Source of the DNA: Natranaerobius thermophilus JW/NM-WN-LF
GTDB taxonomy: Bacteria; Bacillota; Natranaerobiia; Natranaerobiales; Natranaerobiaceae
Assembly: GCF_000020005.1 (NCBI RefSeq)
Contig: NC_010718.1
Coordinates: forward strand, 2,624,001-2,688,000
Reading direction: 5' to 3'
DNA: 64,000 bases
Made by a program: the position numbers and the translations under genes. This document shows positions 1,832 through 49,373 of this stretch, piece after piece. Position 1 is the first letter of the stretch. Each line of letters opens with the position of its first letter. The notes beneath the pieces were generated by a model. It was not told the DNA's origin. It saw only the letters and a program-made list of their open reading frames with translations, and searched no databases.

Positions 1832-3803
1832 TTAGTATTTAAATTTAGAGGCTTCTTCTTGCATTTCCTGGGCTAACTTGGATAAATGCTCACTAGAACG
1901 AGCTATTTCTTCCATGGACGCCGTCTGTTCCTCAACCGATGAAGATATCTCTTCAGTACTGGAGGAATTCTCCTGAGCTATAGCCGATAAACTCTGAAGA
2001 GTATCTATGATTTCTTGTTTCTTTTCCTGCATCTGTGACCCGGTTTCATTTAAACTTTCAACAACTTGTCTAACCTTTTCGATACCCTCTGCAATTCCTT
2101 CAAATTTTGCATCGGCTGCTTTCACGTATTCGGTCTGTTCTTTGACTGTTCCACTAACTTCATCCATTGTTTTAACGGCAGTATTAGATTTATCCATTAA
2201 ATCGGCAACTATTTGTGAAATCTCCTCTGAATATTTATTGGAGTTCTCCGCCAGGTTCCTGATTTCATTGGCCACCACGGAAAAACCTGATCCTGCTTCA
2301 CCCGCCCTGGCTGCTTCAATACTGGCATTTAATGCCAGTAAATTGGTCTGTTCTGCAATATCTCTAATGGTATTACTGGCTTTTTCAATGTTATCGGCGC
2401 TATTTTTAGTTTCATTGATGATTCTAGCTATGTTTTGTGCTGAAGAATTACTCTCTTCAGTCTTGCTTGTCAACTGTTCAACGGCTTGTGAACCCTGATT
2501 TTTCAATTCAGTTACTTCTTCAACAACTTCATTTAACTGCCTGACATGGGCTTGTTCTTTCTCCACAATTTTGCCCAATTCCTCAGTACTGGCCGAAGCC
2601 TGTTCTGTACTTTCAGCCTGATTACTTGCTCCACTGGCAATATCTTCAACTGCCCGGGAAACTTCATTGGCAGCATTGGTATTTTCTGAGCTGTTAGCAG
2701 TTAATTCTTGAGAGGAAGAAGCCACTTGTTCTGATTTTTGTTCAATTCCCTGAAGTAATTCTGCTACATTTTGTCGCATACCTGTCACGGCTCTGGTTAT
2801 ATCGCCAATCTCGTCGCCTCTCTTTAGATATTTCATTGATTCAGCATCATCATTATAGGTGAAATCATAGTCACCTAATCGGCTAATAAGCTCTGTAAGT
2901 TCTGCAATTGGTTTTCCAGCTACCCTATTGACAAAATAAGACATTATTAAAGCTATTAGTACTGTTAATATCAGAGCAGTCATTATTACGGCCTGAGTGA
3001 ACTCAACATCCCCTAAAACAGCTTCATGGGGAACATCATAAAATAAAACCCAGTCCAATTCTTCAAGATACAAACTGCCTAGATAATGATCATCTGTGTC
3101 AATGACCTTGTCTTTTTCTTCCCATACTCTTCTCCAAATAATCATCAACTAACGTCTCTATTCTATCATTATTAGATTCTCCTTCTGTACCAGCAGCTAT
3201 AGTTCCACCTCTATCAACAATATATACAGAGCCAACATACTCTTCACTGATTTCACGTATGTACTCAGATAAAAATCCTAAATTAATATCAGCTCCTACA
3301 ACACTGTCTTCTAAAGGATATGACACTGTCACGGTATAGTCTCCACTTCCAGCATCTTCATATGGTTCTGTTATGAAAGTTTCACCATCTTGCATAGCCC
3401 CTTCGTACCAGACCCTTTCTCTTGGGTCGTAATCTTCTCCTAAATCCTGTTCTGGTTCTATTAACATTTCCCCATCTTCTGATCCTACATAAACATTCAT
3501 AATATGTTCATAATTATCCATATCCAAAATATTGCTATACATATTTCTTAATTCTTGTTCATCATAATCTATTTCTGTTTGTGAGTTGGCAAGACTTTCT
3601 ACCAAAATTGCTGTTTCATCAACTACTTCCATTATTTCTTCATTTGCTAAATGAACTTGACTTTCTATTTCACCTCTAACATACCCTCTCAAAGATGGAA
3701 GTGTATTAGTCACAACTACAAAAGATAGACCTATTATAGGAATCATAATCCCTATAATAAACATCATAAACAACTTATGACTAAGTTTCAACTTTTTTAA
3801 CAC
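1832..3803 (-). pseudogene. Methyl-accepting chemotaxis protein, dCache-like sensor, frameshifted
   Basis: Two overlapping frames together encode one chemoreceptor of about 655 residues. The first (GTG at 3803 behind a G-rich ribosome binding site, stop near 3099) has a membrane anchor at about residues 11-33 and the start of an extracytoplasmic Cache-type sensor. The second (frame open from about 3148 to 1832) continues the sensor, then has a transmembrane segment, a HAMP region ending [10 protein letters not shown], and the cytoplasmic signalling coiled coil with the hairpin tip [19 protein letters not shown]. The frames join by a +1 shift near GGAAGAAAAAG at about 3110-3122. If the shift is real, the product is a sensor fragment without signalling output; a sequencing error or recoding are alternatives. 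The C-terminal end faces a bidirectional terminator. Confidence 0.85.
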
Positions 3804-4015: not shown

Positions 4016-5497
4016 TCACTTAACATCCATACTTTTTGACAACTGGGATAGATCTGATATGACTGCTTCTAGATTTTGAATATCATCTTTAATGTTTTCC
4101 ACATTACTTGCCTGTTCCTGGGTAGATGCATTGATTTCTTCGGTATTTGAAGATGTTTGCTCTAAAGTTGAACTAATATTGTCCATAGAAGCTTCAACTT
4201 CTTCTATTGACGCCGATTGCTCCTCTGCACTTGATGCCACACTCTGAATTTCTATATCTAGTTCATGGATTGAATTAACCACTTCCTCCATTTTCTCTTT
4301 AACACTTTGAGATAGATCCAAAGCCTTATTTACTGGCTCTTCAGCACTTTCAGTGGCTTCTTTGGCCTCATGGGAGTTTTGAACAATTTCATTGGTTATT
4401 TCTCTAATTTCGTCAGTGGCCTGTGCTGATTGTTCAGCCAGTTTTCTGATTTCATCGGCAACCACACCAAAGCCTTTGCCATCTTCACCGGCTCTGGCCG
4501 CTTCAATTGATGCATTCAGTGATAATAGATTGGTTTGCTCGGAAATTTCATCAATCTTATCAACAAATTCTCTAACCTTATCAATTGAATCCACAGTTTT
4601 TTGAGTTTTCTCTAAAGTAGCTTCTCTTCCCTGGTTAACCACCTGCATTTGGTTAAAAGTTTCTTCCGCATAGCTTTTAGAAGTCTCTACATTTGATCTT
4701 ACGGTCGAACTTTTATCGGCAATGGTTTCCGACGATTCCGCCACACTCTGAGCAGACTTAGATATATCTTCAACTGCTTTTTTGGTTTCGCTAATTGTAC
4801 TAGCATTTTCTTGGGCTCCCTGGGCTACCTCATCAATACCAGAACTCACTTCACCCATGGCAGTTGAAACATCACTTATGTAGCTATTAACTTTTTGAGA
4901 AATTTCTTGGGCACTATCGCTTGTGTTATCAATTTTTTCTACCACCCTAGTTAAGTCTTCAGTTTTTTCCTGTTGGCTTTTAACAGCTATGTCAAGTTCA
5001 CTTTTAGATTCGCTGGCAATTTTAGTGACAAAAAATATTCCTATTAGAAACGCTACCATAGTTAGTATAGCAGTTATTAATTCTGCCGATGTTTGCGTAT
5101 TATATTGATTGTAAAAGTAATAGAAAATCAATATTACTGCAGATAAAGTACCAGAAATTAAAGCATACTTCCTATCTTGATATACAACAGCTATTAATAA
5201 TACCGGACACAAGGTCATAAAAGTAATACTGTATAAGCCAAAATAATTTGTAATTACATACAAAGCTAAAATTCCTATCAAGGCAATATATCTTATATAT
5301 AAGTCGTTACTATTTAAAAAAAACCTGATACCCACTATAACTAAAGTTATTAATGTTACTCCAATTAATATAATTATTTCTTCATTACTCCGATCACCCT
5401 CAAAGTATGAAGCCACATGTCCCATGATGTAAAATGTTGAAAAAACAACTACCAAAACCACTGTGAATAAATTAGCTTTCTTGTCTAAATTATTCAT
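4016..5497 (-). CDS. Methyl-accepting chemotaxis protein with polytopic membrane N-terminus, no HAMP
   Basis: The 493-residue protein starts with about six hydrophobic segments (roughly residues 10-165) in place of the usual two-helix sensor with an extracytoplasmic domain. It then runs directly into a long coiled-coil signalling domain with the conserved tip [20 protein letters not shown]. No HAMP or Cache domain is seen, so the stimulus may be sensed in or at the membrane. The ATG overlaps the last 8 bases of the upstream GGDEF/HD-GYP gene, so translational coupling is likely. The ribosome binding site lies in a GAGGGGGGG tract. A terminator at 3911-3942 follows the gene. The family is certain; the ligand is unknown. 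Confidence 0.93.
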
Positions 5498-7343
5498 TAA
5501 TGTTACCCCCCCTCAATAGCTCTAGAAATATTTCAACCAATTTTGGATCAAACTGAGTTCCCGCACATCGCTTAAATTCAGCGACAATTTCTTTTTCACC
5601 CATTGGCTCTTTGTAAGGCCTACCATTACTCATCACTTCATAAGCATCGGCAATGGCAGCAATTCTGGCCAGAAGGGGGATCTCCTCCCCTGATAATCCC
5701 CTGGGATAACCTGAACCATCCCAGTGTTCATGATGGGACAGGATTTCTTCGGCAACATGAGCAAATTCTTCAGTAGCTATAGCAATTCTGTAACCTATCT
5801 CGGGATGTTTTTTCATGATTGTCCACTCGTCTTCATTTAATGTCCCATTTTTAGTAAGCACTTCTTCAGGGATATTGATTTTACCGATATCGTGGAGGGT
5901 TATCAAAAGGTTTAGCCGGTTCAGTTCTGAATGAGATAAACCAATTTGTTTGCCAATTTCTCGTGCCATCATCAACATGCGCCGGGCATGGCTTTCTGTT
6001 TCAAAGCTCTTGGCTTCTAAGGCTTTTAAGAGGGCATTCACAACATCGCTTCGGGCACTTCGGCTCTCGGCCAGTTTTAACTTGTACATATCATTTTCTG
6101 CCCTAGTAAGAACTTCCATCATGTCCTCCTGAATACTCTCTTTAGTTGCCGTACCCACTGCCAGAGAGAGGGGGATGTTTTTCACATAAGTACCCTTGCA
6201 TTTATAATTTATTACCTTACATATGTCCCTAGCTTCTTCATCCGTAATATCCGGGAGTAGGATTACAAACTCATCTCCTCCCCACCTGGCAATTTCAGCT
6301 TTTTTACGAGATGATTCATCACATGATTCATGCAAAATCTGAGCTACCTTTAGTAACATTTCATCACCAACATGATGGCCGTAAGAATCATTAATCATTT
6401 TAAGTCCATTTAAATCTGCCATTATCACACTAATAGGGAAATAACTGCTACTTCCTTTTCGGGTTTCACCATCCAAGCGAGTTAGTTCACCTTCTAAATA
6501 AGCACGATTATACAGTCCAGTTAAACTATCGTGAAAACTTAAGTACTGAATTTTTTCATCCTTATTTCTGCGTACAGTAACATCTCGGGCTACTGACTGA
6601 AATTCAACTAGCTCACCCATGTCATTAAAAATAGGGCAATCAATCCAGTGCTGCCAATAAGCTTTCCCATCGGCACCGGTAACCTGATGTTCGTATGAAA
6701 GAACCCTGGGGTTATTCGTAAGGTTTTGATATTTTTGCCAAACTTTATCTCTTTCCTGCTCAGGGACAAACTCTATCCACTTTTTTCCCAGCAAATCATG
6801 TTTTGTCTGACCAAAAAAATTACAATAAGATTTGTTAACAAAGGTTAAAGTGGTATCAGGAAGCCACCTGCACACCAGCTCTAACTGCTCTTCTATTAAA
6901 GCCTGATACCTAGCCTTTTCCCGAAGAAGCTTGTCCTCTGCCCGTTTTTGCTTACTAATATCTATAAAAGAACCCACTAATTTTAAAGGCTTGCCCTGCT
7001 CATCCTCAACTAAAGAGGCAGACAAGTGAACATCAAACAATTCTCCATCTTTTTTTCGGGCAATCAATTCGCCAACCCAAGTCCCCTTTTCAAAAAGCTC
7101 ATCCAAAATCTTTTGGGTTTTGTCAATGTTTTTCCAAAACTCCAGAGCGGACCGGCCTAAAATTTCTTGTTCTTCTTCATACCCCCACAAATCTAAAAAG
7201 GATTGATTGACATAAGTGATATATCCTTCCAAATCCGTAAAGGCAATGGCATTAATGGACGAATTTATAGCCTGTTCTTTTACTTTCAATTCTTTATTTA
7301 TGTGGTCAGTAATTCTATTAACATCGCTTTTTAAGTCGTTCAT
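5490..7343 (-). CDS. PAS-PAS-GGDEF-HD-GYP c-di-GMP turnover protein
   Basis: A cytoplasmic protein of 617 residues without transmembrane segments. Two PAS domains (about 22-135 and 140-260) precede a GGDEF domain (about 265-430) with the intact active-site motif RWGGDEF, and a C-terminal HD-GYP phosphodiesterase domain (about 435-605) with [23 protein letters not shown] and the DAYEVM helix. Both synthesis and hydrolysis of c-di-GMP are therefore possible, with PAS domains setting the balance. The ATG follows a G9 ribosome binding region. Its stop overlaps the next MCP gene, pairing a second-messenger enzyme with a chemoreceptor. A c-di-GMP-I riboswitch lies about 2 kb upstream on the same strand (9301-9380). 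Confidence 0.95.
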
Positions 7344-7500: not shown

Positions 7501-7534
7501 AAAAAAACCTGACCCGAATAATCCGAATCAGGTT
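7501..7534 (-). terminator. Rho-independent terminator of the riboswitch-controlled operon
   Basis: AACCTGACCCGAA (7506-7518) pairs with TCCGAATCAGGTT (7522-7534), a 13-bp stem including G-T pairs with a 3-nt loop. On the minus strand it is followed by seven T. Confidence 0.94.
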
Positions 7535-7566: not shown

Positions 7567-8532
7567 TCAAGCTTTTTGTGACAAGAAAGAGCCGCCTATA
7601 TTTCCCGAGACTATTTGATAGACATCTTCAGCTCCTTGCTGAATATTTGAAGCAAATTCCTGTCCACCAGAAACCATTTCCTCTTTGATTGTTGAAGCAG
7701 TTTGGGTTATATCTTCTCCAATAGAAACTGTATTTTCTTTAACATTTTCCCCTTCGTTTCTAACTATCTCGTAATTACTTTCAATATCCTCAATATGATT
7801 CTCTATTTCGGCATGTCCACTGCTAATTGTATCAGGAATTCTATTAAATGGTTCTTTAACTTCTGAAAACTCTTGGAATCCTTGGTAAACCCCGACGGCT
7901 CTATCTACAACACCATCCCCCTCTTTAAAGCCTTCTGCCACATGATTTACTCCTCGAGCTACGGCTCCTGCAGTTTTGGCAACATCTTTACCAACAGTAA
8001 CTGCAGTTTCTACCCCCGTTGAAGCTATATCTCTAGCTGAACTTCTCATTTCACCAGCAACATCTCGTATTTCTGTAGCACTTTCCCTTATCTCATCATA
8101 ACTGTGTTCAACTTGTTCTGCTGTCTTATTTACTTCAGTTTTAACATTGTCTCTAGTTTCCTGAATAGTTTCTGTAACTTCTTGCGTTGTTTCCTGAACA
8201 GTTTCTCCAATTTGAACTATGCCATCTTTAACCTGTTCTCCTACCGATACTGCTGTTTTTACAGTTTCTCTAGCAGTATCAGCAGCTGTTTCAACCCCTT
8301 CTCTAACACGAGTAGTAATTGTATCGATAACTCCTTTGTCTTCTTGATTAGTCTTCGTATCTTTAGTTTCTACCTCTTCTTGTGTTTTTTGAATTTCTTT
8401 TGCTTGTGTATTTTGCTGATCATCAACCTGTTTATCTGTTGATTTTGATTCTTGAGTTTGTTGGGGCTGGATTGATTGAATTCTCTCTGTAACTAACCCT
8501 GTTAACCTACCTCCTCCTTCAATAATAGTCAT
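7567..8532 (-). CDS. Low-complexity helical (apolipoprotein/LEA-like) protein, second gene of c-di-GMP riboswitch operon
   Basis: A protein of 321 residues with no signal peptide and no transmembrane segment. Residues about 20-70 are rich in Gln, Lys, Thr and Glu. Residues 70-320 are an almost continuous amphipathic helix with irregular 11-residue-like repeats of the type ETVQETTQEVTETIQET, as in late-embryogenesis-abundant, apolipoprotein or phasin-like proteins. No catalytic motif is seen. Its ATG overlaps the stop of the upstream CBM48-like gene (TAATG), so the two are translated together under the c-di-GMP-I riboswitch at 9301-9380. A desiccation or surface-coating role would fit the composition but is a guess. 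It ends before a strong terminator. Confidence 0.8.
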   Translation of the reverse strand: MTIIEGGGRLTGLVTERIQSIQPQQTQESKSTDKQVDDQQNTQAKEIQKTQEEVETKDTKTNQEDKGVIDTITTRVREGVETAADTARETVKTAVSVGEQVKDGIVQIGETVQETTQEVTETIQETRDNVKTEVNKTAEQVEHSYDEIRESATEIRDVAGEMRSSARDIASTGVETAVTVGKDVAKTAGAVARGVNHVAEGFKEGDGVVDRAVGVYQGFQEFSEVKEPFNRIPDTISSGHAEIENHIEDIESNYEIVRNEGENVKENTVSIGEDITQTASTIKEEMVSGGQEFASNIQQGAEDVYQIVSGNIGGSFLSQKA

Positions 8533-9212
8533 TAAACATCCCCCCTTATAGAATAATAACCTTTTTCTAATAATTGAAATTTATCTTCTAAAATAAATGC
8601 TCCATCCACAAACAATTTTAAAGTCCATAACCCGCAGGGTAGTTGATGCTTTGAATTTCTCAAATCTAACCAAAACCACAACATCTTTGTTTGAGTTTCT
8701 TTAGAATTAGTTTCAATAAGATAGTTTTCACTAACTTGAAATAAATTTCCTTGAGGTGTATACCATGCTGTAGTAATCGAATGAAGTCCAGTAACTTGTG
8801 TAAACAAAAACCTGGCAACAATTTTTTGATCCAAAAATCTATCATACTGCCTTTTATGATTCTTTATTGGTTTTTCGGACATTACTGAGGATAATTTATA
8901 CTCTTCAATATGGACACTATATTTTTGGTTATTGTACAACCTTTCCCCTCGTTCATTGATTATTATGACTGACCAAATCTGATCATCGTTGTCTAGCATA
9001 TAAATATTAGCTTTAGGATCATTAAGTCTCAAATTTCCATTTATTAAAAAGGCATACAAATGTTCACCCGGTGGCAGTTTTATCGTTTTTAACCAACAGT
9101 CTTTATCTTCTTCCATTAGCAAACTATTTTGATATTTAGTGAAATTTCCGATTATTTCAACATATTCTATCGGAATATTGGGATCTTTATCTAAACTTAA
9201 AGTAACTTCCAC
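8532..9212 (-). CDS. CBM48/AMPK-beta-like two-domain beta-sandwich protein
   Basis: A protein of 226 residues without signal peptide. Residues about 1-95 resemble the glycogen-binding E-set fold: an N-terminal beta strand, VEIIGNFTKY, WLKTIKLPPGEHLYAFLING and DPKANIY follow the order seen in AMPK-beta/CBM48 modules. Residues about 120-220 form a second Ig-like unit with W-Y-T-P-Q-G and P-C-G-L-W-T-L-K-L-F-V-D-G. No enzyme domain is attached. It is the first gene after a c-di-GMP-I riboswitch and terminator (9252-9380), so its expression should follow c-di-GMP. It is translationally coupled to the coiled-coil gene downstream. A polysaccharide- or protein-binding role is an inference from the fold. 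Confidence 0.75.
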   Translation of the reverse strand: MEVTLSLDKDPNIPIEYVEIIGNFTKYQNSLLMEEDKDCWLKTIKLPPGEHLYAFLINGNLRLNDPKANIYMLDNDDQIWSVIIINERGERLYNNQKYSVHIEEYKLSSVMSEKPIKNHKRQYDRFLDQKIVARFLFTQVTGLHSITTAWYTPQGNLFQVSENYLIETNSKETQTKMLWFWLDLRNSKHQLPCGLWTLKLFVDGAFILEDKFQLLEKGYYSIRGDV

Positions 9213-9251
9213 ATTATCACTTCCTTAGAATTACTTCTTTGAGAGTTTAGG

Positions 9252-9283
9252 TTAAAAAAAGCTACTTCACGAAGAAGTAGCTT
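9252..9283 (-). terminator. Terminator in the expression platform of the c-di-GMP riboswitch
   Basis: AAGCTACTTC (9259-9268) pairs with GAAGTAGCTT (9274-9283), followed on the minus strand by seven T. On that strand the sequence GAAGAAGTA just upstream can pair instead with TACTTCTTC inside the terminator stem, giving a plausible antiterminator. Confidence 0.9.
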
Positions 9284-9300
9284 CTGCTTACTTCTTCCTT

Positions 9301-9380
9301 GGCAACCCGACTGTCTTTTATTGACGTTTTGTCAACAAAAGACTCGTGGCTTTGCGCCCCCACCTCACGGCAGGTTTGCC
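9301..9380 (-). promoter_or_regulatory. Cyclic di-GMP-I (GEMM-I) riboswitch aptamer
   Basis: On the minus strand the aptamer runs GGCAAACC, a CCTGCC stem capped by the GNRA loop GTGA, then GGGGGCGCAAAGCCACG, a long variable stem with GTCTTTT and AAAAGAC arms, and CAGTCGGGTTGCC closing P1 with GGCAAACC. This follows the GEMM-I consensus, including the tetraloop and the GCAAAGCC core. A terminator with an alternative antiterminator pairing lies between it and the gene at 9212, so control is probably by transcription termination. Whether c-di-GMP switches expression on or off cannot be settled by eye. Confidence 0.93.
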
Positions 9381-9563
9381 ATTTTCAAGAAAGAATTATA
9401 GTATTTTAAATTAAAATATTGTAATATTGGTTCTGTTATTATTAACTTTCTAGTTAAATAGACAAAATCCTTTAGGACTATTGTATTATTTTTCCACACT
9501 ACTCTATAAAACATAAGAGAAAAGTTTTATAGAAATAATTTTAAAGTTAAAGTACAATATTAC

Positions 9564-9612: not shown

Positions 9613-11331
9613 ATGAAAAAGTTAGTCCAAAGAAGTATTAAGAACAGGTTAATATCAGGAGTCGTAGCCTTGACAATTATTATGGTAGTTGCCCTAATAC
9701 TATTAAATAACTATACTATCGAAGATATAGTAGAAACCACAGTTAATGATAAATTAGAGGGAGACCATGAGATGGGACTAAGAGTCGTTGAAAACAACTT
9801 TAGCGGAAATTGGCATATATTAGGAGACGAATTATATAAAGGAAATGTAACTGCAGATGAAATGACAGGAACTTTAGATAATATCCAAGAAAGTACCGGA
9901 TCTGTAGCAACTATTTTCAAAGGTGACACCAGTGTGGCTAGTAATCTTACAGATAGTGAAGGAGAAAGGGCAATCGGAACTCAAGTTGATGAAGAAGTAT
10001 CCCAGACTGTTTTGGAAGAAGGAGAACGGTTTACTGGTCAAATAGAAATTTTAGGAACCCCCCATGAAGTTATGTATTCTCCTATAGAAAATCCCGAAGG
10101 TGAAGAAATCGGTATTTGGTTCACAGGTGTGCCCATTGATGATGTCAATAACTTGATCAATCAAGGAAATATGAGTTTTATTTTTTTCTCTTCCATAATA
10201 ATTATTATCGCCTTAATACTCTTTTATATTGCAATCAATAAAATTGTTAAGCCAATTAAAGGGTTGACCTCTTTGTTAGATAAATTTTCCACATTAGATT
10301 TATCATCAAGTGAAGAAGATAATACTAATAGTTATTTAAAACGTTCAGATGAAATAGGTAAAATGGCTAAAGCCATGATGAACATGCAAGAAGCAGTTGT
10401 ACAGTTGATTAAAAATATTAATGATAAATCAAACCAGGTCACTTCCTCGGCAGAGGAATTAAGTGCAAACGCCGAAGAAAATACCAGTGCAGCTAATGAA
10501 GTTTCAAAGGCAGTAGAAGAAATTGCTCAAGGTGCCACCAGCCAAGCCGAGAAAACAGATCAAAGCTCTAATGTTACTGAAGAACTTGGAAAAATCATTG
10601 AAAAAGAACAGAGCTGTGTAGATAGTTTAAATCAAGCTATTGAAGAAGTAACCAATAAAAAAGAAGAGGGTACTGAAGCAGTTAAAAACTTGCACGAAAA
10701 AACAAATGAGACTAACAGTGCCATCAAAGAAATCACAGAAGTAATTGAAAAAACTCACTCAAGAACCCAAGAGATTAAAGAAGCAAGTAGTCACATAACA
10801 GATATAGCTGAGCAAACAAACTTATTAGCCCTTAACGCCAGTATTGAAGCTGCTCGGGCAGGCGAGCATGGACAAGGTTTTGCAGTGGTAGCTAACGAAA
10901 TTAGACAACTTGCAGAAAAGTCAAATGAATACTCAGAAAATATCTTGAACAATATCGATGGGTTAAATAAACAGGCAAATGATGCAGTTAAAACAATGGA
11001 AAATGTAAAGCAAATAATAAAAGAACAAAGTGTTTATGTGGAAGAAACCGGTTCCAAGTTCGATGGAATTTCTAATGCCATAGAAGGAGTAGAAAGTCAG
11101 TTATCCGAACTCAATGAATTTGGAAAAGAAATGAATAATAAGAAACAAGAGATTATAAACGCACTACAAGACCTGTCTTCAATAGCTGAAGAAAACTCAT
11201 CAAGTACTGAAGAAATTTCATCAACTGTGGAAGAACAAACTGCAAGTATGGATGAAATCGCTTCAGCCAGTGAACAATTGACAAAATTAGCTGAAGAAAT
11301 GCAAGAAGAAATAAATAAGTTTTCGTATTAA
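9613..11331 (+). CDS. Methyl-accepting chemotaxis protein with single extracytoplasmic sensor domain
   Basis: A receptor of 572 residues with a perfect AAGGAGGGAGG ribosome binding site. A membrane helix at about residues 13-31 is followed by an extracytoplasmic domain of about 150 residues that resembles a single Cache (sCache_3-like) sensor, a second membrane helix at about 190-210, HAMP (to KRSDEIGKM-like sequence), and a full signalling domain with the tip [19 protein letters not shown] and paired methylation-type helices rich in [10 protein letters not shown]. It is a monocistronic unit divergent from the riboswitch operon. The ligand cannot be predicted. It is closely related in architecture to the frameshifted receptor at 1832-3803. 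Confidence 0.94.
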
Positions 11332-14552: not shown

Positions 14553-15058
14553 TAAAAACACCTCCACTTATTGTATTTGTGTCATCTATTTATATGCAAT
14601 AACTGTGCCAGCTTCAATTAATTCGGCAAACCATTGGCTCTACTTCCCTATATCACAGGTTTTGACGAGTTTGGTTAATTTTTATTTAAAAAGCTGTGCA
14701 ATAAAAACACTTCCTCTTCTGGAAACATGCTGTTCCAGAAGAGGACTAGGTTTGTAAAGAAAGGTTTCCGCCGGAAATAATTCGTTCCATTTTACGCTAT
14801 GCCATGAACAAATTTGCAGTTTGAACACAGTTAAGCATTATTAAATAATCTTAACATTATTATAATAGTTTTGGGACAGCCATACTACTAGAAATTATTG
14901 AGATTTTTAAAATTCTAGCAGATTCTTCAAATTCCAGTTTTTTACTTTTCACCCTCTTTTTCACCTTCAAGGAGCAATATATACCTTATTTATAACATAA
15001 TGTATATTTCATTTCACTACGTAAAAAATAAAAAAAATTTATGGGAAGGATAATAATA
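14553..15058. other. Divergent intergenic region between methionine gamma-lyase and gerA operon
   Basis: It holds the minus-strand leader of the lyase gene, with a strong terminator hairpin at 14713-14744 and further pairing upstream of it (GTTC/GAAC arms around 14780-14815). TATAAT-like sequence at about 14855-14862 could start that leader. The plus half is AT-rich promoter sequence. No SAM riboswitch or T-box core was found. Confidence 0.55.
14713..14744 (-). terminator. Leader terminator upstream of methionine gamma-lyase gene
   Basis: CCTCTTCTGGAA (14713-14724) pairs perfectly with TTCCAGAAGAGG (14733-14744), and on the minus strand GTGTTTTTATT follows. There is no gene upstream for it to end, so it is probably a transcription attenuator for the lyase gene. 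Confidence 0.75.
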
Positions 15059-16621
15059 ATGTTAAACATTATACAAAAACTTATTAAAAAAAAACGTCCC
15101 TATATAATGAGTACAGAAAAATTAGATGATAGTAACAATACGAAAATAAGTAAAAACTTTAATTATAATCACAAACATCTTAAGAATATCTTCGAAAACA
15201 GTGATGACATTTGCTTCCGGAATTTTATCACTGATTCGAATGCAAATGTACTTACACTATTTATCGAGGGGTTAGTAAACGAAGAACTGGTTAATAGTGA
15301 CATTATTAAACCACTACAGTATAACTCAACTAAAGAGAAAAACACAGATGAAGCTTCTCCAGAGACTATCAAAAAAAGATTATTTACAGTAGGAACTGAA
15401 GTACAAACCAAAACTTGTTTCAATCAATTAATCGAAGAAGTATTAGATGGAAAAACAGCTATAATTATAGAAGGGCTTCCACAAGGCTTTATTATTGATT
15501 TAACTCAATGGGAAAACAGAGGAATTGAAGAGCCAATTAATGAGCAATCAATCAAAGGACCAAGAGAAGGGTTTACTGAAACCCTTCGAATCAATACATC
15601 CCAGTTAAGAAGAAGAATTAAATCACATCATTTTAAGATTCAACAATTTAGAATTGGTAAGCAAACAAATACAAATATAGCAGTAGCTTATTGTGAAAAT
15701 ATCGCTAATCAAACAATTGTCAATGAAGTAATTAATCGTATAAACAAAATTGATATTGACGGCATTTTAGAAAGTAACTATATCCACGAGTTAATTGAAG
15801 AAAGAACAATCACTATATTTCCGGAAATGATAGACACTGAAAGGCCGGATAAAGTAGCAGGACATCTCTTAGAAGGTAAAATAGCCATACTTACTGATGG
15901 TACTCCTTTCGCAATAATTCTGCCAGTTACATTAAGCGAATTTTTTCATACTCCTGAAGATTACTATACTCGCTATATTTTCTCCTTTGTACAAAGGACT
16001 TTAAGATTTGCTAGCTTTTTTATTGCTACTTGCCTACCATCTATTTATGTTCTTATGACAAAATTTCATTATGAAATGATACCTGTAGATATTATATTTT
16101 CAATTGCAGAAGCTAGAGAAGCTGTGCCTTTCCCACCACTGTTGGAAGTTTTGTTAATAGAAGTAATTGTAGAGTTTTTGCGTGAAGCAAGTTTAAGGTT
16201 ACCTGGGCCAATTGGTCAAACAGTGGGTATAGTAGGGGCCTTGGTCATCGGAGATGCTGCAGTTAACGCTGAACTTATGAGTCCAGTATTAGTAATATTT
16301 ACTGCTTTTAGTATGATATCTAGTTTTGTTATACCTAATTATTCAATGGCTTCTGCTCTGAGATTACTTAGGTTTCCAATTTTGTTTATGACAGGAATAC
16401 TAGGAGGTTTTGGATTTATGATAGCCTGGTTTTTAATAGCTACACATCTTTGTAACATAAGCAGTTTTGGAGTACCCTTTTTACAGCCAATTGCTCCTTT
16501 CAAACTTTCTGAACAACGTGACACGGTTTATAGAATGCCATTCAGGTGGGTTAGAAAACGCCCCAAAGCAGTTGCAAATAAAAATATCAGACGTCAAAAA
16601 GGAGTTGAAGAAGAGGATTGA
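15059..16621 (+). CDS. gerA: Spore germination protein GerA/GerAA family (germinant receptor A subunit)
   Basis: The product has 520 residues from the ATG at 15059, which has GGAAGGA at good spacing; the in-frame ATG at 15041 overlaps that ribosome binding site. A soluble N-terminal region of about 280 residues (with NVLTLFIEGLVNEELV-like sequence) is followed by a membrane domain with AREAVPFPPLLEVLLIE, LPGPIGQTVGIVGALVIGDA and NYSMASALRLLRFP, all typical of GerA subunits. It sits in the spore inner membrane and forms the receptor with the B and C subunits. The stop overlaps the TTG start of gerB. The germinant cannot be told. Confidence 0.95.
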   Translation: MLNIIQKLIKKKRPYIMSTEKLDDSNNTKISKNFNYNHKHLKNIFENSDDICFRNFITDSNANVLTLFIEGLVNEELVNSDIIKPLQYNSTKEKNTDEASPETIKKRLFTVGTEVQTKTCFNQLIEEVLDGKTAIIIEGLPQGFIIDLTQWENRGIEEPINEQSIKGPREGFTETLRINTSQLRRRIKSHHFKIQQFRIGKQTNTNIAVAYCENIANQTIVNEVINRINKIDIDGILESNYIHELIEERTITIFPEMIDTERPDKVAGHLLEGKIAILTDGTPFAIILPVTLSEFFHTPEDYYTRYIFSFVQRTLRFASFFIATCLPSIYVLMTKFHYEMIPVDIIFSIAEAREAVPFPPLLEVLLIEVIVEFLREASLRLPGPIGQTVGIVGALVIGDAAVNAELMSPVLVIFTAFSMISSFVIPNYSMASALRLLRFPILFMTGILGGFGFMIAWFLIATHLCNISSFGVPFLQPIAPFKLSEQRDTVYRMPFRWVRKRPKAVANKNIRRQKGVEEED

Positions 16622-17697
16622 AAAAACACGAAAAAAAAGATATAAGTCAATTCCAATGGATTACTATAATTCTTGGCATGACAATTGGTATAGGAATAAC
16701 AACATTACCCAGGGGGATTGCTACTGAAGCCGGTAGAGACGGATGGTTTTCTATTTTGTTGTCAACCTTGATAGTTATTATATATGCAAATATTTGCCTT
16801 TACTTTTCTCGCCTTTTTCCAGATAAAACTCTAGCTCAATCCAGCATAATAATACTTGGTAAGTTTTGGGGTACCATTCTGATCGTTATATATAGTTTAT
16901 ATGCCTTAACATTGTCCGGGTTGGTTCTTAGGTTTTTTATGAACATTGCATATGTGTATCTGGATATACAATATCCAATGGTATTTCATTTTATTATAAT
17001 TCTCTCTGTAATTATATATATAGCAAGAAATGGTCTATCAACTTTATCTCGACTCAGTGAATTAGTTCTTTTTTATACACTACCCCTATTCATACTTTTT
17101 TTAATCCCCGTTTCATTAGATAAACATATAAATTTATTACCAGTCTTTGAAGGAGGGATTGTAGAACCAGTTAAAGCTATACAGGAACCTCTTCTTGCTT
17201 TTCTAGGTATAGAAATTATATTAGTATTTTATCCTTATCTAAATAAGAAAGAAGATGATGCTAAACTAACCAATATAGCAATAATTATTACCGGACTTAT
17301 TTATACTTCAATCTTTATAGTCTCTCTAATGATGATGGGACTAGAGCAATTAAACCTGACTTATTGGCCATTTATAGAATATTTAAAAATTATTGATATA
17401 GCTGTTATAGAACGCATAGATACTTTGTTTATTCACTTATGGTTAGGCAAGGTAATTCTAGTTTCTTCCATTCAGTATTTTGTAGCTACTTTTTCTCTGG
17501 CTCACATAACAAATAAAGATTATCATGACATTTGGTCACTAGTGGCTTGGCCCATTGTATTATTTGTGGCACTAGTACCTCAAAATGTTCCTGAGACTGA
17601 AGAGTTTGCAGCTAACTTCACTTTATATGGAGGAGGACTAGTAATTTTAATTCCCATTTTGCTTATCATAACATGTAAATTGAGAGGTGTCAGATAG
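16618..17697 (+). CDS. gerB: Spore germination protein GerB/GerAB family (APC-type permease subunit)
   Basis: A polytopic membrane protein of 359 residues with about ten hydrophobic segments. The start is a TTG within ATTGA, overlapping the gerA stop, with GGAG ten bases upstream. N-terminal features include ISQFQWITIILGMTIGIGI and the TLPRGIATEAGRDGWF loop, which are characteristic of endospore germination permeases of the amino acid-polyamine-organocation fold. This subunit is thought to bind the germinant. It is followed without a gap by gerC. Confidence 0.95.
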   Translation: MKKHEKKDISQFQWITIILGMTIGIGITTLPRGIATEAGRDGWFSILLSTLIVIIYANICLYFSRLFPDKTLAQSSIIILGKFWGTILIVIYSLYALTLSGLVLRFFMNIAYVYLDIQYPMVFHFIIILSVIIYIARNGLSTLSRLSELVLFYTLPLFILFLIPVSLDKHINLLPVFEGGIVEPVKAIQEPLLAFLGIEIILVFYPYLNKKEDDAKLTNIAIIITGLIYTSIFIVSLMMMGLEQLNLTYWPFIEYLKIIDIAVIERIDTLFIHLWLGKVILVSSIQYFVATFSLAHITNKDYHDIWSLVAWPIVLFVALVPQNVPETEEFAANFTLYGGGLVILIPILLIITCKLRGVR

Positions 17698-18861
17698 ATG
17701 AGAGTTAATATAAATAAAAGTATAATAATTCTTATAATAATCTTTATTTTTAGTAGTTTAACAGCTTGTGATTTCGTTAACGAAAAAATTTTAGACGAAC
17801 TTTCGATAATTTTAGCTATGTCCTTTGATTCTAATCCAGAAAATGATAATGATGACTACAATCCCCTTCTATTAACCACTTCAAATCCGCTATTTGCCGA
17901 AGAAGCTAAAGAGCCTGTCCGTGTTAAGACAGTTCAGGGTCGAACAATAGGAAATGCTTTAGATAACTGGCAACAACATAGAAATAGATTAATGGCTTTA
18001 GGAAAGGTAAATATAATGTTATTTGGAGAAAATATCACAAAAGAAAACTTTCCTAATACAGTTAAAGATATAAGGCAAATTCCAGAAATTGATGCAACAT
18101 CTTTAGTTGCTTATCATCCTGGAAAAGCAAAAAATCTATTATACCAAAACCCTGTCGAAGACGGTAGAATAGCGGTTTTTCTAAGTGACATGCTAGAATT
18201 TGGAGCTGATGACGGACTAATACCTGAAGTTACCCTACATGAATTATGGACAGCAGTTTTAACAAAAGGTAGAGATGGATATCTCCCTAAAGTTGATCTA
18301 AAAGAAGAAGGTGATGAAATACCTTATATATCCGGGGCAATGGTTTTGACCGAAAATGGAAATAAGGCTACAACTTTGAATTCCGAGGAAACTAAGTTAT
18401 TAACAACCATGCTAAATGAAAAAGCCATTCCCTCCTTTTCCTCAAACATTTTTGTTGAAGAAGAAGAAGGGTTAATAGAGTATAGTGTTCAAAACACTGA
18501 TATGAACATTAATGTTGAATATAATAATGAAGTTTCTGTAGAAATAGATAATAACATTGAGGTTTACCTGGAAGAAGTACAAATCCCCGGAATTGAGATT
18601 ATAGATAAAAAAACCTTTGAAACTATAGCTGAATTTGTAGCCAAAGATTTTATGGATAATACACAAAATCTTATAGCAAAATTACAACGACACAAAAGTG
18701 ATCCAATAGGAATAGGGCAATATGTGAGAATACAACAGTCAGAATACTATTCTAAAGGCACTTGGAGAAATGATTATCCCGACATAGATATTGACAATAA
18801 TTATACTGTCAATGTTTTTAGAGGAAGCACCTTATCCGAAACCTTTAAGCTAGAGCGTTAA
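17698..18861 (+). CDS. gerC: Spore germination lipoprotein GerC/GerAC family
   Basis: A lipoprotein of 387 residues. The N-terminus has a hydrophobic signal with lipobox SLTAC, followed by DELSIILAMSFD and a segment with VQGRTIGNALDNWQ that matches GerAC N-terminal domains. The C-terminal half contains the family-typical region ending before LIAKLQRHKSDPIGIGQYVR. The ATG follows the gerB stop directly, completing a gerA-gerB-gerC operon. The protein anchors the germinant receptor at the outer face of the spore inner membrane. No terminator was seen before the insertion sequence. Confidence 0.95.
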   Translation: MRVNINKSIIILIIIFIFSSLTACDFVNEKILDELSIILAMSFDSNPENDNDDYNPLLLTTSNPLFAEEAKEPVRVKTVQGRTIGNALDNWQQHRNRLMALGKVNIMLFGENITKENFPNTVKDIRQIPEIDATSLVAYHPGKAKNLLYQNPVEDGRIAVFLSDMLEFGADDGLIPEVTLHELWTAVLTKGRDGYLPKVDLKEEGDEIPYISGAMVLTENGNKATTLNSEETKLLTTMLNEKAIPSFSSNIFVEEEEGLIEYSVQNTDMNINVEYNNEVSVEIDNNIEVYLEEVQIPGIEIIDKKTFETIAEFVAKDFMDNTQNLIAKLQRHKSDPIGIGQYVRIQQSEYYSKGTWRNDYPDIDIDNNYTVNVFRGSTLSETFKLER

Positions 18862-18961: not shown

Positions 18962-20442
18962 TGTCAATGTTCTTTGAAAATGTCACCTAAAAACGCATAA
19001 ATTTGTTCAGAGAAAATGTCACCCCCCAGGAAGGTAGACCGAGTTTTAAACTCGGTCCCTGGTATTTAGTATAGTATCTAAAAGTTCTTGATCAGTCAGG
19101 TCGTAGTTAAGATTTGTTCTTTCACTTTGTTTTCTCCAAGGGTGATTTTCATCTGGGACTATTCTATTTTTAGGTGATTGCGTTGTTTTAACTTTTTTGG
19201 TCATTTTAGTAGTTGAAGGCTTGTCCACAATTTGAGTTTCAAACACCATATCTTTATATTTTACTTTAACTCCAAATTTAGGATTAGATAGGACAGTAAC
19301 TTTAGATTTAGGAACCAGTTGACTATTTTTATCTAAAATTTGATAGTAACTTCCTTCAAAAGAGAAAGTGGCACTGTTGTCCACAGTTCTTTTGAATTTA
19401 GAACAAAGTATATGATCAAGATTAATATCTTGATTTAAACAGGTAAAAGCCGATAGCTCATTTTCGGGCTTTAGGGCAAATCTTTTATTAAAATCAGGCA
19501 AGAAATCTTTTTGTAAAAATTCATTAGCTTTCTCCATGGTAGTTATATTGTGTAGCTTAAAAAGTGTGGGCAGTCTGCTTTGTAAAGTATCAAAAAGCCT
19601 TTCAACTCGTCCTTTTGCTTGTGGAGAGTTAGCAGGTATAATAGTGACTCCTAACTCTTCCATAGCTGCACCAAATTGAGTAGGCTTAACTTGTTTACCT
19701 GCGAGCTGTTCATCAATCGAAAGCTTGTCCGATTTAGGTGATCTAAAAATAGTGTGCTTATCGCTATAAAGACTTGCAGGAATACCATAGTTTGAAATTA
19801 ACTGATGCATAATCTGAAAGTATCCCTCAAGACATTCATTTTCAACAAAAAATAATCCTAGCAAAGCTCCTGTGGCATCATCGATAGCAGCGTGTAAATC
19901 ACAATCAAAGCCAGTGTCAAACCAGTCATAAGGTGAGGCGTCTATTTGTACTAAAAGTCCCATTCTGTCCTTGCGTTTGCGTCTGTGGTGACTCTTACTC
20001 TTTTTATGTTTTTTAGGACTAGAAATTCCAGCTTTACTAAGAATTCTATGAACAACTGGCCTACTGATAGAGATTTTTTCTCGCTCGTTTAAAAGTTCTG
20101 TAAAATGAGTGAAATTTGCATTTGGGTATTTTTCTAACTTTAGAGAAATGATATGTTTTTCAGTACTTTCAGGAACAGAATGATCAGGCTTTTTACCTCG
20201 GCTTTTATGTATGACAAAACTGGGTCCTTCTAGTTGCACTCCTTTCTTCAGTCGTTTAATTTGTCGATCACTGAGGTTCAAAGCTCGTGCTGCATCTCTA
20301 ATGGTTAAGTAGCCATCAATTGTTTGATTGATAATATTTAGTTTTTTAATTTCTTCTTGGGTCATTTGATATGTCACCTTTTTAGTCATAGTGACATTTT
20401 CACAGAACATTCTAGGGGTGACAATATCACAGAACAATTACA
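18962..20442 (-). mobile_element. IS1202-like (ISNCY) insertion sequence
   Basis: The element of about 1.48 kb has 26-bp imperfect terminal inverted repeats: TGTCAATGTTCTTTGAAAAT.. at 18962-18987, and on the opposite strand TGTAATTGTTCTGTGATATT.. ending at 20442, both continuing with TGTCACC. Each end has a second inner copy of the TGTTC..GA.AATGTCAC motif (19003-19022 and 20390-20411), probably transposase binding sites. A 17-bp identical direct repeat flanks it. One intact transposase gene fills the interior. Confidence 0.8.
19046..20389 (-). CDS. IS1202-like DDE transposase
   Basis: The product has 447 residues from the ATG at 20389 (MTKKVTYQMTQEE). A longer frame to 20437 would run through the inverted repeat and is less likely. 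It has an N-terminal helix-turn-helix (IRDAARALNLSDRQIKRLKK) and an rve-type catalytic core. Candidate acidic residues lie in QIDASPYDWF, AAIDDATG and the SPQAKGRVERLFDTLQ helix. The C-terminal part is basic. The length and SPQAKGRVER motif fit the ISNCY/IS1202 group. The gene is complete, so the element could be active. Confidence 0.88.
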   Translation of the reverse strand: MTKKVTYQMTQEEIKKLNIINQTIDGYLTIRDAARALNLSDRQIKRLKKGVQLEGPSFVIHKSRGKKPDHSVPESTEKHIISLKLEKYPNANFTHFTELLNEREKISISRPVVHRILSKAGISSPKKHKKSKSHHRRKRKDRMGLLVQIDASPYDWFDTGFDCDLHAAIDDATGALLGLFFVENECLEGYFQIMHQLISNYGIPASLYSDKHTIFRSPKSDKLSIDEQLAGKQVKPTQFGAAMEELGVTIIPANSPQAKGRVERLFDTLQSRLPTLFKLHNITTMEKANEFLQKDFLPDFNKRFALKPENELSAFTCLNQDINLDHILCSKFKRTVDNSATFSFEGSYYQILDKNSQLVPKSKVTVLSNPKFGVKVKYKDMVFETQIVDKPSTTKMTKKVKTTQSPKNRIVPDENHPWRKQSERTNLNYDLTDQELLDTILNTRDRV

Positions 20443-27356: not shown

Positions 27357-27456
27357 GTGGTAGAGTAGGTGTCTCGCGTTAAGTGCCAAGGGATGGGACG
27401 TTGCCCTTGGACGAAAGCTATTAAGAGCTGCGTTGGGACATCGCGTTCGCTATCAC
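27357..27456 (+). promoter_or_regulatory. Tetrahydrofolate (THF) riboswitch
   Basis: GTGGTAG (27357-27363) pairs with CTATCAC (27450-27456) as P1. Between them lie the conserved AGAGTAGGTGTCTCGCGTTA start, the AAGTGCC/GGGATGGGACGTTGCC core and GGACGAAAG, as in folE/folT THF riboswitches. It precedes a FolT gene, which supports the identity. Expression platform: CACATCAA at 27454-27461 shares bases with P1 and pairs with TTGATGTG at 27499-27506. Confidence 0.92.
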
Positions 27457-32345: not shown

Positions 32346-32756
32346 ATTAACTCCCCTATCCATGAGTTTTCTACTTAAATTATAACTGAAGTCGACATAA
32401 AATGACAATCTAGGTCACAACTCAATTTCGGACAGGCATCTTATATAGTTGTATTATAAAACATTCAATGTGAGAGAATTATGTGGCTTTGGCTACATCT
32501 TAGCGAGTTAACAATAGAACTGTAAGCATATTACAAGATTAGGAAGGAATATTTAAAGCATTAATAGAAATTAAATTACATGAAATAAATTCCAAAATTT
32601 ACCCAACAATAAATTAACAAAATTTTTAGTGTACACATAAGCAAAAAATTTAATATTAGAAAATTAGGTCCTTATTAATTTACAGATGATGATTACAGAT
32701 AATCAGAAACACTTCGCCTCTGCAAACTAGTGGAGAGAATATCAATAAATTAATAA
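32346..32756. other. Intergenic region upstream of cobalamin riboswitch
   Basis: AT-rich sequence between the divergent kinase operon and the riboswitch unit. It must hold promoters for both, but no convincing -10/-35 pair or other element was identified. Confidence 0.4.
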
Positions 32757-32893
32757 GGTTAAATTGGAAGTTCGGTGAAAATCCGGCGCGGTCCCGCCAC
32801 TGTAATGGGGAGATTATTTTCTTATAATGCCACTGGAGAATCAAACTCTGGGAAGGCAAAAATAATCTATGAACCTAAGCCAGGACACATGCC
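32757..32893 (+). promoter_or_regulatory. Cobalamin riboswitch 1, before BTAD-type regulator gene
   Basis: The conserved cobalamin aptamer segments appear in order: TTCGGTGAAAATCCGGCGCG, GTCCCGCCACTGTAATGGGG, GCCACTGG, CTCTGGGAAGGC and AGCCAGGACACATGCC. A rho-independent terminator at 32988-33016 lies between it and the gene starting at about 33080-33136, so control by transcription termination is likely. Confidence 0.95.
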
Positions 32894-32987
32894 TAATTTA
32901 GTTTACCTTTGAACTACGATAGATAGGGAGGTGAACTGTGCATATTTTGAATTGATATTCTAAATCAAATATCTGATATTTACAGTT

Positions 32988-33879: not shown

Positions 33880-33987
33880 TCGATAATAAATAATTCAGTG
33901 TCACCTGATTGTCACCAGTATAACACCAAAATAACACATCTAAATGATAAATTACAGTTACAGTAATAAAAAAATGAATACCGAAAT

Positions 33988-34142
33988 ATAACAGGTGCCT
34001 GTAAAAAGGCTTAAAAGGGAAACCGGTGAAAATCCGGTACGATCCCGTCACTGTGAGCACGAGTCGACCCCATTATTCCACTGGCGAAACGCTGGGAAGG
34101 AGGGGAAGATGATGACTGTAAGTCAGGAGACCTACCTGTTAT
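33988..34142 (+). promoter_or_regulatory. Cobalamin riboswitch 2, before cobalt/nickel ECF transporter operon
   Basis: ATAACAGGT and ACCTGTTAT close the outer helix. Inside are GGGAAACCGGTGAAAATCCGG, GATCCCGTCACTGTGAGCAC, the ATTCCACTGGCG segment, GCTGGGAAGGAGG and AAGTCAGGAGACC, all conserved cobalamin aptamer blocks. Terminator-like hairpins follow before cbiQ. Confidence 0.96.
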
Positions 34143-34227
34143 ATTAGCTGCATTCCCTTCGGGTGAAAGGGCTGGGCTGCGCATAAAATGTCGCGGTAGT
34201 ATTCACCACGGCGTTTTTTTATGGACT

Positions 34228-49130: not shown

Positions 49131-49167
49131 GTATATACACTGTCTTGTTCTAAATCTTAGCCTACGG

Positions 49168-49260
49168 CAACCGCTCTCCCTTCGCTGGCATTAACCAGTT
49201 CAGGTTATGGGGTCGGTGTTTACCCTCTCAGCCCATTTTTGGGGCTCCCCCGGCGGTGTT
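49168..49260 (-). promoter_or_regulatory. Thiamin pyrophosphate (TPP) riboswitch
   Basis: On the minus strand: GGGGGAGCCCC, GGGCTGAGAGGGT, ACCCCATAACCTGAACTGG-type core, TTAATGCCAGCGAAGGGA. These are the diagnostic TPP blocks, closed by ACCGC/GCGGT. A terminator follows before thiW, so TPP should switch off the thiW-thiD-thiM-tenA operon by premature termination. Confidence 0.97.
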
Positions 49261-49373
49261 CCAATTCATTATAAAGTTTTTGCCATAAATTTTTTGCATA
49301 AATATTCATTATAAATTTTCTTAATATAAAGATATCATATTCGTTAATTTTTGTAAATTTAATCATCTCGACT

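Follow-up and report, generated by a model that had tools for sequence, protein, structure and literature searches.

What does c-di-GMP control through a riboswitch that stands before two genes whose products form a pair of which no description was found in the family libraries or the literature searched? This question is raised by a locus of Natranaerobius thermophilus JW/NM-WN-LF that lies in a stretch of 64,000 nucleotides (contig NC_010718.1, positions 2,624,001 to 2,688,000; hereafter the window). The two genes, coding for a CBM48-like protein of 226 aa and a helical protein of 321 aa, overlap by one base (TAATG) and are translationally coupled (Table 1). A first-pass annotation of the sequence had described an operon of two uncharacterised genes that is controlled by a riboswitch and adjoins c-di-GMP and chemotaxis genes. 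This description was right, and both the GGDEF/HD-GYP enzyme and the chemoreceptors that it had placed beside the operon were confirmed. The span that it had given (7567-9380) covered the correct region but fell about 10-15 bases short of the 5' ends of the aptamer and P1.

Table 1. Features of the riboswitch-controlled operon and its neighbourhood (window coordinates).
Feature	Position	Strand	Basis or remarks
Chemoreceptor (MCP) gene	4016..5497	-	Pfam; overlaps the GGDEF-HD-GYP gene
PAS-PAS-GGDEF-HD-GYP protein gene	5490..7343	-	Pfam; separate transcription unit beyond the operon terminator
Strong intrinsic terminator ending the two-gene operon	7506..7534	-	pattern scan
Gene of the 321-aa helical partner	7567..8532	-	start overlaps the upstream stop (TAATG)
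Gene of the 226-aa protein, GTG start	8532..9212	-	AMPK1_CBM/CBM48-like N-terminal domain and all-beta C-terminal domain
Intrinsic terminator GCUACUUC-UUCGU-GAAGUAGC + U7	9254..9281	-	folding; arms 9281-9274 / 9268-9261, U tract 9260-9254
Antiterminator hairpin GAAGAAGUAAGC-AGAA-GCUACUUCUUC	9271..9297	-	folding, probability 0.98; arms 9297-9290 / 9278-9271
Extended P1, 3' strand CAAGGAAGAA	9292..9301	-	folding; last 6 bases are the antiterminator start
c-di-GMP-I (GEMM-I) riboswitch aptamer	9297..9389	-	Rfam covariance scores and pocket letters
Extended P1, 5' strand UUCUUUCUUG	9386..9395	-	folding
Divergent chemoreceptor gene (sCache_3_3 + MCPsignal)	9613..11331	+	Pfam

Further chemotaxis and riboswitch elements were observed elsewhere in the window. 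A chemoreceptor appears to be split over two overlapping ORFs (1832-3148 and 3099-3803, both on the minus strand), one with HAMP-MCPsignal and the other with the dCache sensor, representing either a gene with a frameshift or an error in the sequence. Two cobalamin riboswitches (32739-32910 and 33976-34153, plus strand) lie about 1.2 kb apart, and a THF riboswitch (27359-27454, plus strand) and a TPP riboswitch (49159-49261, minus strand) were also found. A three-gene spore germination operon (15041-18861, plus strand; GerXA-, permease- and Ger(x)C-type) is followed by an ISNCY transposase gene (19046-20437, minus strand).

The first-pass annotation had proposed a c-di-GMP-I aptamer upstream of the operon, with an RF01051 covariance search as the check. 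Run over the site, RF01051 (c-di-GMP-I, the parent family) scored 67.0 bits (cut-off 35) and RF03167 (c-di-GMP-I-GGC) was the top Rfam family with 69.9 bits (cut-off 59; E 1.7e-14 with the 64-kb window searched), and the proposal was borne out by both models. The aptamer core consists of GGCAAACC, a GUGA tetraloop, GCAAAGCC and GGGUUGCC. At the equivalents of the pocket positions G20, A47 and C92, which we take to follow the Vc2 numbering, the window aptamer has G, A and C (GGCAAACC, GCAAAGCC and GCC, respectively). The name GGC presumably refers to a G at the A47-equivalent position. This feature is absent here, although RF03167 is the best-scoring family: the window reads GCAAAG at the pocket and keeps A, whereas the RF03167 consensus reads GCGAAG and has G. 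A cGAMP riboswitch was rejected on account of the G at position 20, and the Rfam matches to RAGATH-15 and CRISPR repeats were rejected with scores below cut-off. Because the pocket letters are canonical, we take the window aptamer to be an ordinary c-di-GMP sensor that resembles the GGC model at other positions, and its ligand is probably c-di-GMP. That it senses another ligand, as a member of the GGC variant class, would be in line with the higher score of RF03167 and with known GEMM variant RNAs of changed ligand specificity (PMC7266159), but is very improbable given the canonical A at the A47 equivalent and the c-di-GMP enzymes encoded by neighbouring genes.

The genome, with a chromosome of 3,165,557 bases and two further small contigs, contains four GEMM-I sites. 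The three outside this locus precede one HD-GYP gene and two chemoreceptor genes, and one of these chemoreceptor genes adjoins another PAS-GGDEF-HD-GYP gene. The two sites that precede chemoreceptor genes, at locus L015 (9659-9743 and 16999-17081), are leaders of the OFF type; a distance of about 7 kb separates them, and a group II intron lies in the interval.

The terminator and antiterminator pairings claimed for the leader of the operon were both present by folding. GAAGAAGUAAGC, located just 5' of the terminator, can pair with the terminator 5' arm, and it begins inside the 3' strand of the extended P1 (UUCUUUCUUG/CAAGGAAGAA), which is fully paired. With the transcript cut off ahead of the terminator 3' arm, the window leader formed the antiterminator with a probability of 0.98, as compared with 0.73 (HD-GYP) and 0.38 and 0.95 (two MCP) in the other GEMM leaders at the same stage. 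All four leaders of the genome share the overlap between the P1 3' strand and the antiterminator as well as the competition of the antiterminator with an intrinsic terminator. When P1 was forced, the antiterminator was abolished in every one of them and the terminator then stood at 0.98-1.00 in three (1.00 and 0.98 for the two MCP leaders) and at only 0.33 in the HD-GYP leader. In the full-length window leader, the terminator was favoured with or without forced P1, that is, even in the ligand-free state, and blocking of the P1 5' strand gave only 0.53 versus 0.47; the decision must therefore be co-transcriptional and depend on kinetics. The pattern scan for terminators missed the riboswitch terminator, the U tract of which is probably consumed by stem extension. 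Since the P1 3' strand overlaps the antiterminator, c-di-GMP is predicted to turn the operon off, and the riboswitch would act as a transcriptional OFF switch at high c-di-GMP. At low c-di-GMP, the nascent leader would form the antiterminator and the operon would be transcribed. At high c-di-GMP, the ligand would lock P1 and with it the 5' half of the antiterminator, which serves as the P1 3' strand, so that the terminator would form and transcription would stop.

The first gene of the operon had been assigned to a glycogen-binding-fold protein without an enzyme, and Pfam supported this with a match of residues 17-86 to AMPK1_CBM (PF16561; 8.2e-10, 39.2 bits, cut-off 26.8), a family matched by 13 of the 14 members of the protein family. 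The C-terminal domain belongs to no Pfam family. It was all-beta in an AlphaFold2 model of low confidence (pLDDT 50.6), and as Foldseek returned nothing at E <= 0.001 for the modelled domain, no fold is claimed. In AMPK, two tryptophans stack on glycogen and a lysine belongs to the site. In a HMMER alignment to AMPK beta-1 (1z0n), the two tryptophans correspond to Tyr27 and Leu61 and the lysine to Ala54 of the 226-aa protein, and none of 14 aligned homologues has tryptophan at the second position. No signal peptide was visible in either protein of the pair. The 321-aa partner is a low-complexity, amphipathic helical protein. It had been called LEA/apolipoprotein-like: the helical character stood, with sub-threshold apolipoprotein-like coiled-coil matches (Apolipoprotein, 21.2 bits against 90), and the identification as a LEA protein was rejected since no LEA family of Pfam matched.

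Two readings of the pair start from these domains. The first-pass annotation had suggested a c-di-GMP-controlled surface, carbohydrate-binding or stress-coat system, in which the CBM48-like protein would bind glucan and the LEA-like protein would coat or protect. Such a role agrees with the AMPK1_CBM match above cut-off and with the amphipathic, low-complexity partner, but the missing signal peptide, the lost tryptophans, the absence of a LEA match, the predicted OFF logic at high c-di-GMP and the flagellar gene context in relatives described below all weaken it, and we consider it unlikely. Intracellular CBM48 proteins bind glycogen, and the pair might thus be a storage or granule-surface module made of an intracellular glycogen-binding adaptor and a phasin- or gas-vesicle-like helical protein. 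The partner has sub-threshold hits to PHA_granule_1 and GvpQ that point in this direction, but their scores of about 17 bits (curated cut-offs 95-100) could come from any amphipathic helix, the glycogen-site residues are not kept, and no granule genes were noticed near any locus of the pair; a granule function is therefore quite improbable.

Eight further clostridial genomes carrying the pair were found (G056, Anaerophilus, G635, G586, G625, G462, G414 and G402), in all of which a helical partner alignable with the second gene of the window directly follows the CBM-like gene. The full-length CBM-like protein was found in G056 (49% identity) and Anaerophilus nitritogenes (46%), and more distant homologues in the G052/G006 and g128 genomes. 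The named genome collection yielded nothing with the CBM-like protein as a single-sequence query and A. nitritogenes only with an alignment query; in the order of this species, 9 of 297 genomes encode the CBM-like protein at full length. Other proteins, most of them much larger, contain regions that weakly match the CBM-like part; these were set aside as ordinary CBM48 domains. Searches of IMG/VR and of plasmids were negative, so that nothing in them points to a mobile or viral origin. It had been proposed that the pair be looked for in other genomes together with GEMM aptamers. The pair itself is conserved in the eight genomes above, but among the pair-bearing genomes compared an aptamer directly precedes it only in the window genome. 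In G635, an aptamer lies 2.2 kb upstream of the pair; it was not counted as associated, because two genes and terminator-like hairpins intervene. In three pair-bearing genomes (G462, G635 and G586; loci L132, L133 and L134), a GEMM-I aptamer stands directly before flgB-flgC, as in C. difficile; these genes were named by reading the sequences.

According to the first-pass annotation, the genes of the pair were not typical GEMM targets such as those of flagella. The gene context in relatives does not support this view, nor does the position of the other GEMM aptamers of the genome before chemoreceptor and HD-GYP genes. In G414, the pair is located within a flagellar cluster in the order flgM, flgN, flgK, flgL, fliW, flagellins, GGDEF proteins and pair, followed by an unnamed gene of 132 aa, HD-GYP and flaG, and further on by fliS and fliD (flagellin, FlaG, one GGDEF and HD-GYP were named by Pfam; flgM, flgN, flgK, flgL, fliW, fliS and fliD by reading the sequences). 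Its sister genome G402 has the same neighbourhood. In a third relative, G056, the pair comes after a chemoreceptor gene, also named by reading its sequence. Most loci of the pair (those of G398, G586, G625 and G462) are not beside motility genes, no link of this kind was seen in Anaerophilus, G586, G625 and G462, and the pair of the window genome, which encodes two proteins with a Flagellin_N domain, is likewise outside the late-flagellar cluster. Flagellin is encoded by 16 of 17 genomes with the CBM-like protein, as compared with 151 of 297 in the background order. Within the 297-genome draw it is present in 8 of 9 bearers (Fisher p = 0.02, or p = 0.004 without the divergent bearer G509, both uncorrected for shared ancestry). 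The flagellin association is modest, and the evidence on flagellar context was gathered after the fact.

In an alignment, the partner proteins share a short N-terminal stretch, e.g., MKITNNVNLNATVI, and their last residue is alanine, in most cases with leucine or an aromatic residue before it. A pattern for the protein start, M[KR]I[TNQ].N, chosen after viewing the sequences, occurs in only 6 of the 461 distinct ORFs of the loci compared, namely two flagellins, FlgL and three partner proteins that are close kin; the window partner itself does not start with M[KR]I[TN].

Some members of the family are organised differently. In G151, G178, G203 and G461, the CBM-like gene stands at the end of cassettes that are present in up to three copies per genome. 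Their partner proteins have a disordered or helical N-terminal part and differing C-termini, and are followed by genes for membrane or TM-TPR proteins that differ between cassettes. These variant cassettes (loci L035, L037, L038, L039 and L123), with their membrane or TM-TPR genes resembling immunity genes, look like an effector-immunity arrangement and were recorded as candidate loci of this kind. At a further locus (L077, 3349-7042, plus strand), genes for a GH24 lysozyme with a disordered N-terminus, a putative immunity protein, a small helical protein and a two-TM protein were observed; a few genes from the lysozyme, a relative of the all-beta C-terminal domain is encoded as a protein of its own. 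It could be argued from the toxin-like variable C-termini, the differing membrane and TM-TPR genes, the several copies in some genomes and the proximity of the C-terminal-domain homologue to GH24 that the whole family is an adaptor or chaperone with the cargo of an interbacterial effector system, the window pair being a reduced member. Neither Pfam, PHROGs nor NCBIfam matched a toxin family in the partners (GH24 occurs in the separate cassette only), and partners of the window type are helical throughout and have no variable tail; we regard this origin of the window pair as unlikely. A combined reading, in which the CBM48-like protein would be a dedicated chaperone or adaptor for proteins exported by the flagellar type III system, with variable effectors and immunity genes in some lineages and c-di-GMP switching the module off here, is conceivable and has a low probability.

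Considering the predicted direction of the switch together with the gene context, we favour, at somewhat better than even odds, the view that a c-di-GMP-I OFF switch governs a two-gene operon of the swimming state and that the products of this operon form a conserved module associated with flagella and chemotaxis. The most likely role of the pair is that of a motility-state module repressed by c-di-GMP, with its flagellar link resting on context. The CBM48-like/all-beta protein and its helical partner would probably form a complex that acts within or at the flagellar/chemotaxis apparatus; the helical protein is a candidate substrate of flagellar export. Through its riboswitch, a gene pair that would otherwise be anonymous can be assigned to the c-di-GMP response, and its occurrence in other genomes suggests a place, open to testing, in the clostridial flagellar/chemotaxis regulon. 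Should the flagellar link hold, the pair would be an accessory of clostridial flagella that is conserved but undescribed, and its family may have branched off into effector delivery.

The system can be compared with several known ones. The 226-aa protein is matched by sequence to the profile and the solved structures of the AMPK beta glycogen-binding domain and CBM48 (PF16561, PF02922), but unlike these it has replaced the glycogen-contact tryptophans and is fused to an unnamed all-beta domain, without an enzyme or kinase partner. With late flagellar export substrates (flagellin, FlgL, FlgM), several partner proteins share the short M-K/R-I-T/N N-terminus and, in two genomes, the pair shares the flagellar gene context, whereas no flagellin or FlgM family matches the partners. 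The class-I c-di-GMP switches of C. difficile are OFF switches, including one before the flgB flagellar operon (PMC11477304). The window riboswitch resembles that of the flgB operon in its aptamer family, in its OFF logic, which is predicted here, and in having a motility-state target. The C. difficile switch targets genes of the flagellar basal body, whereas the window switch targets the two-gene module. The pair adds a new target to those of a switch type that is already known.
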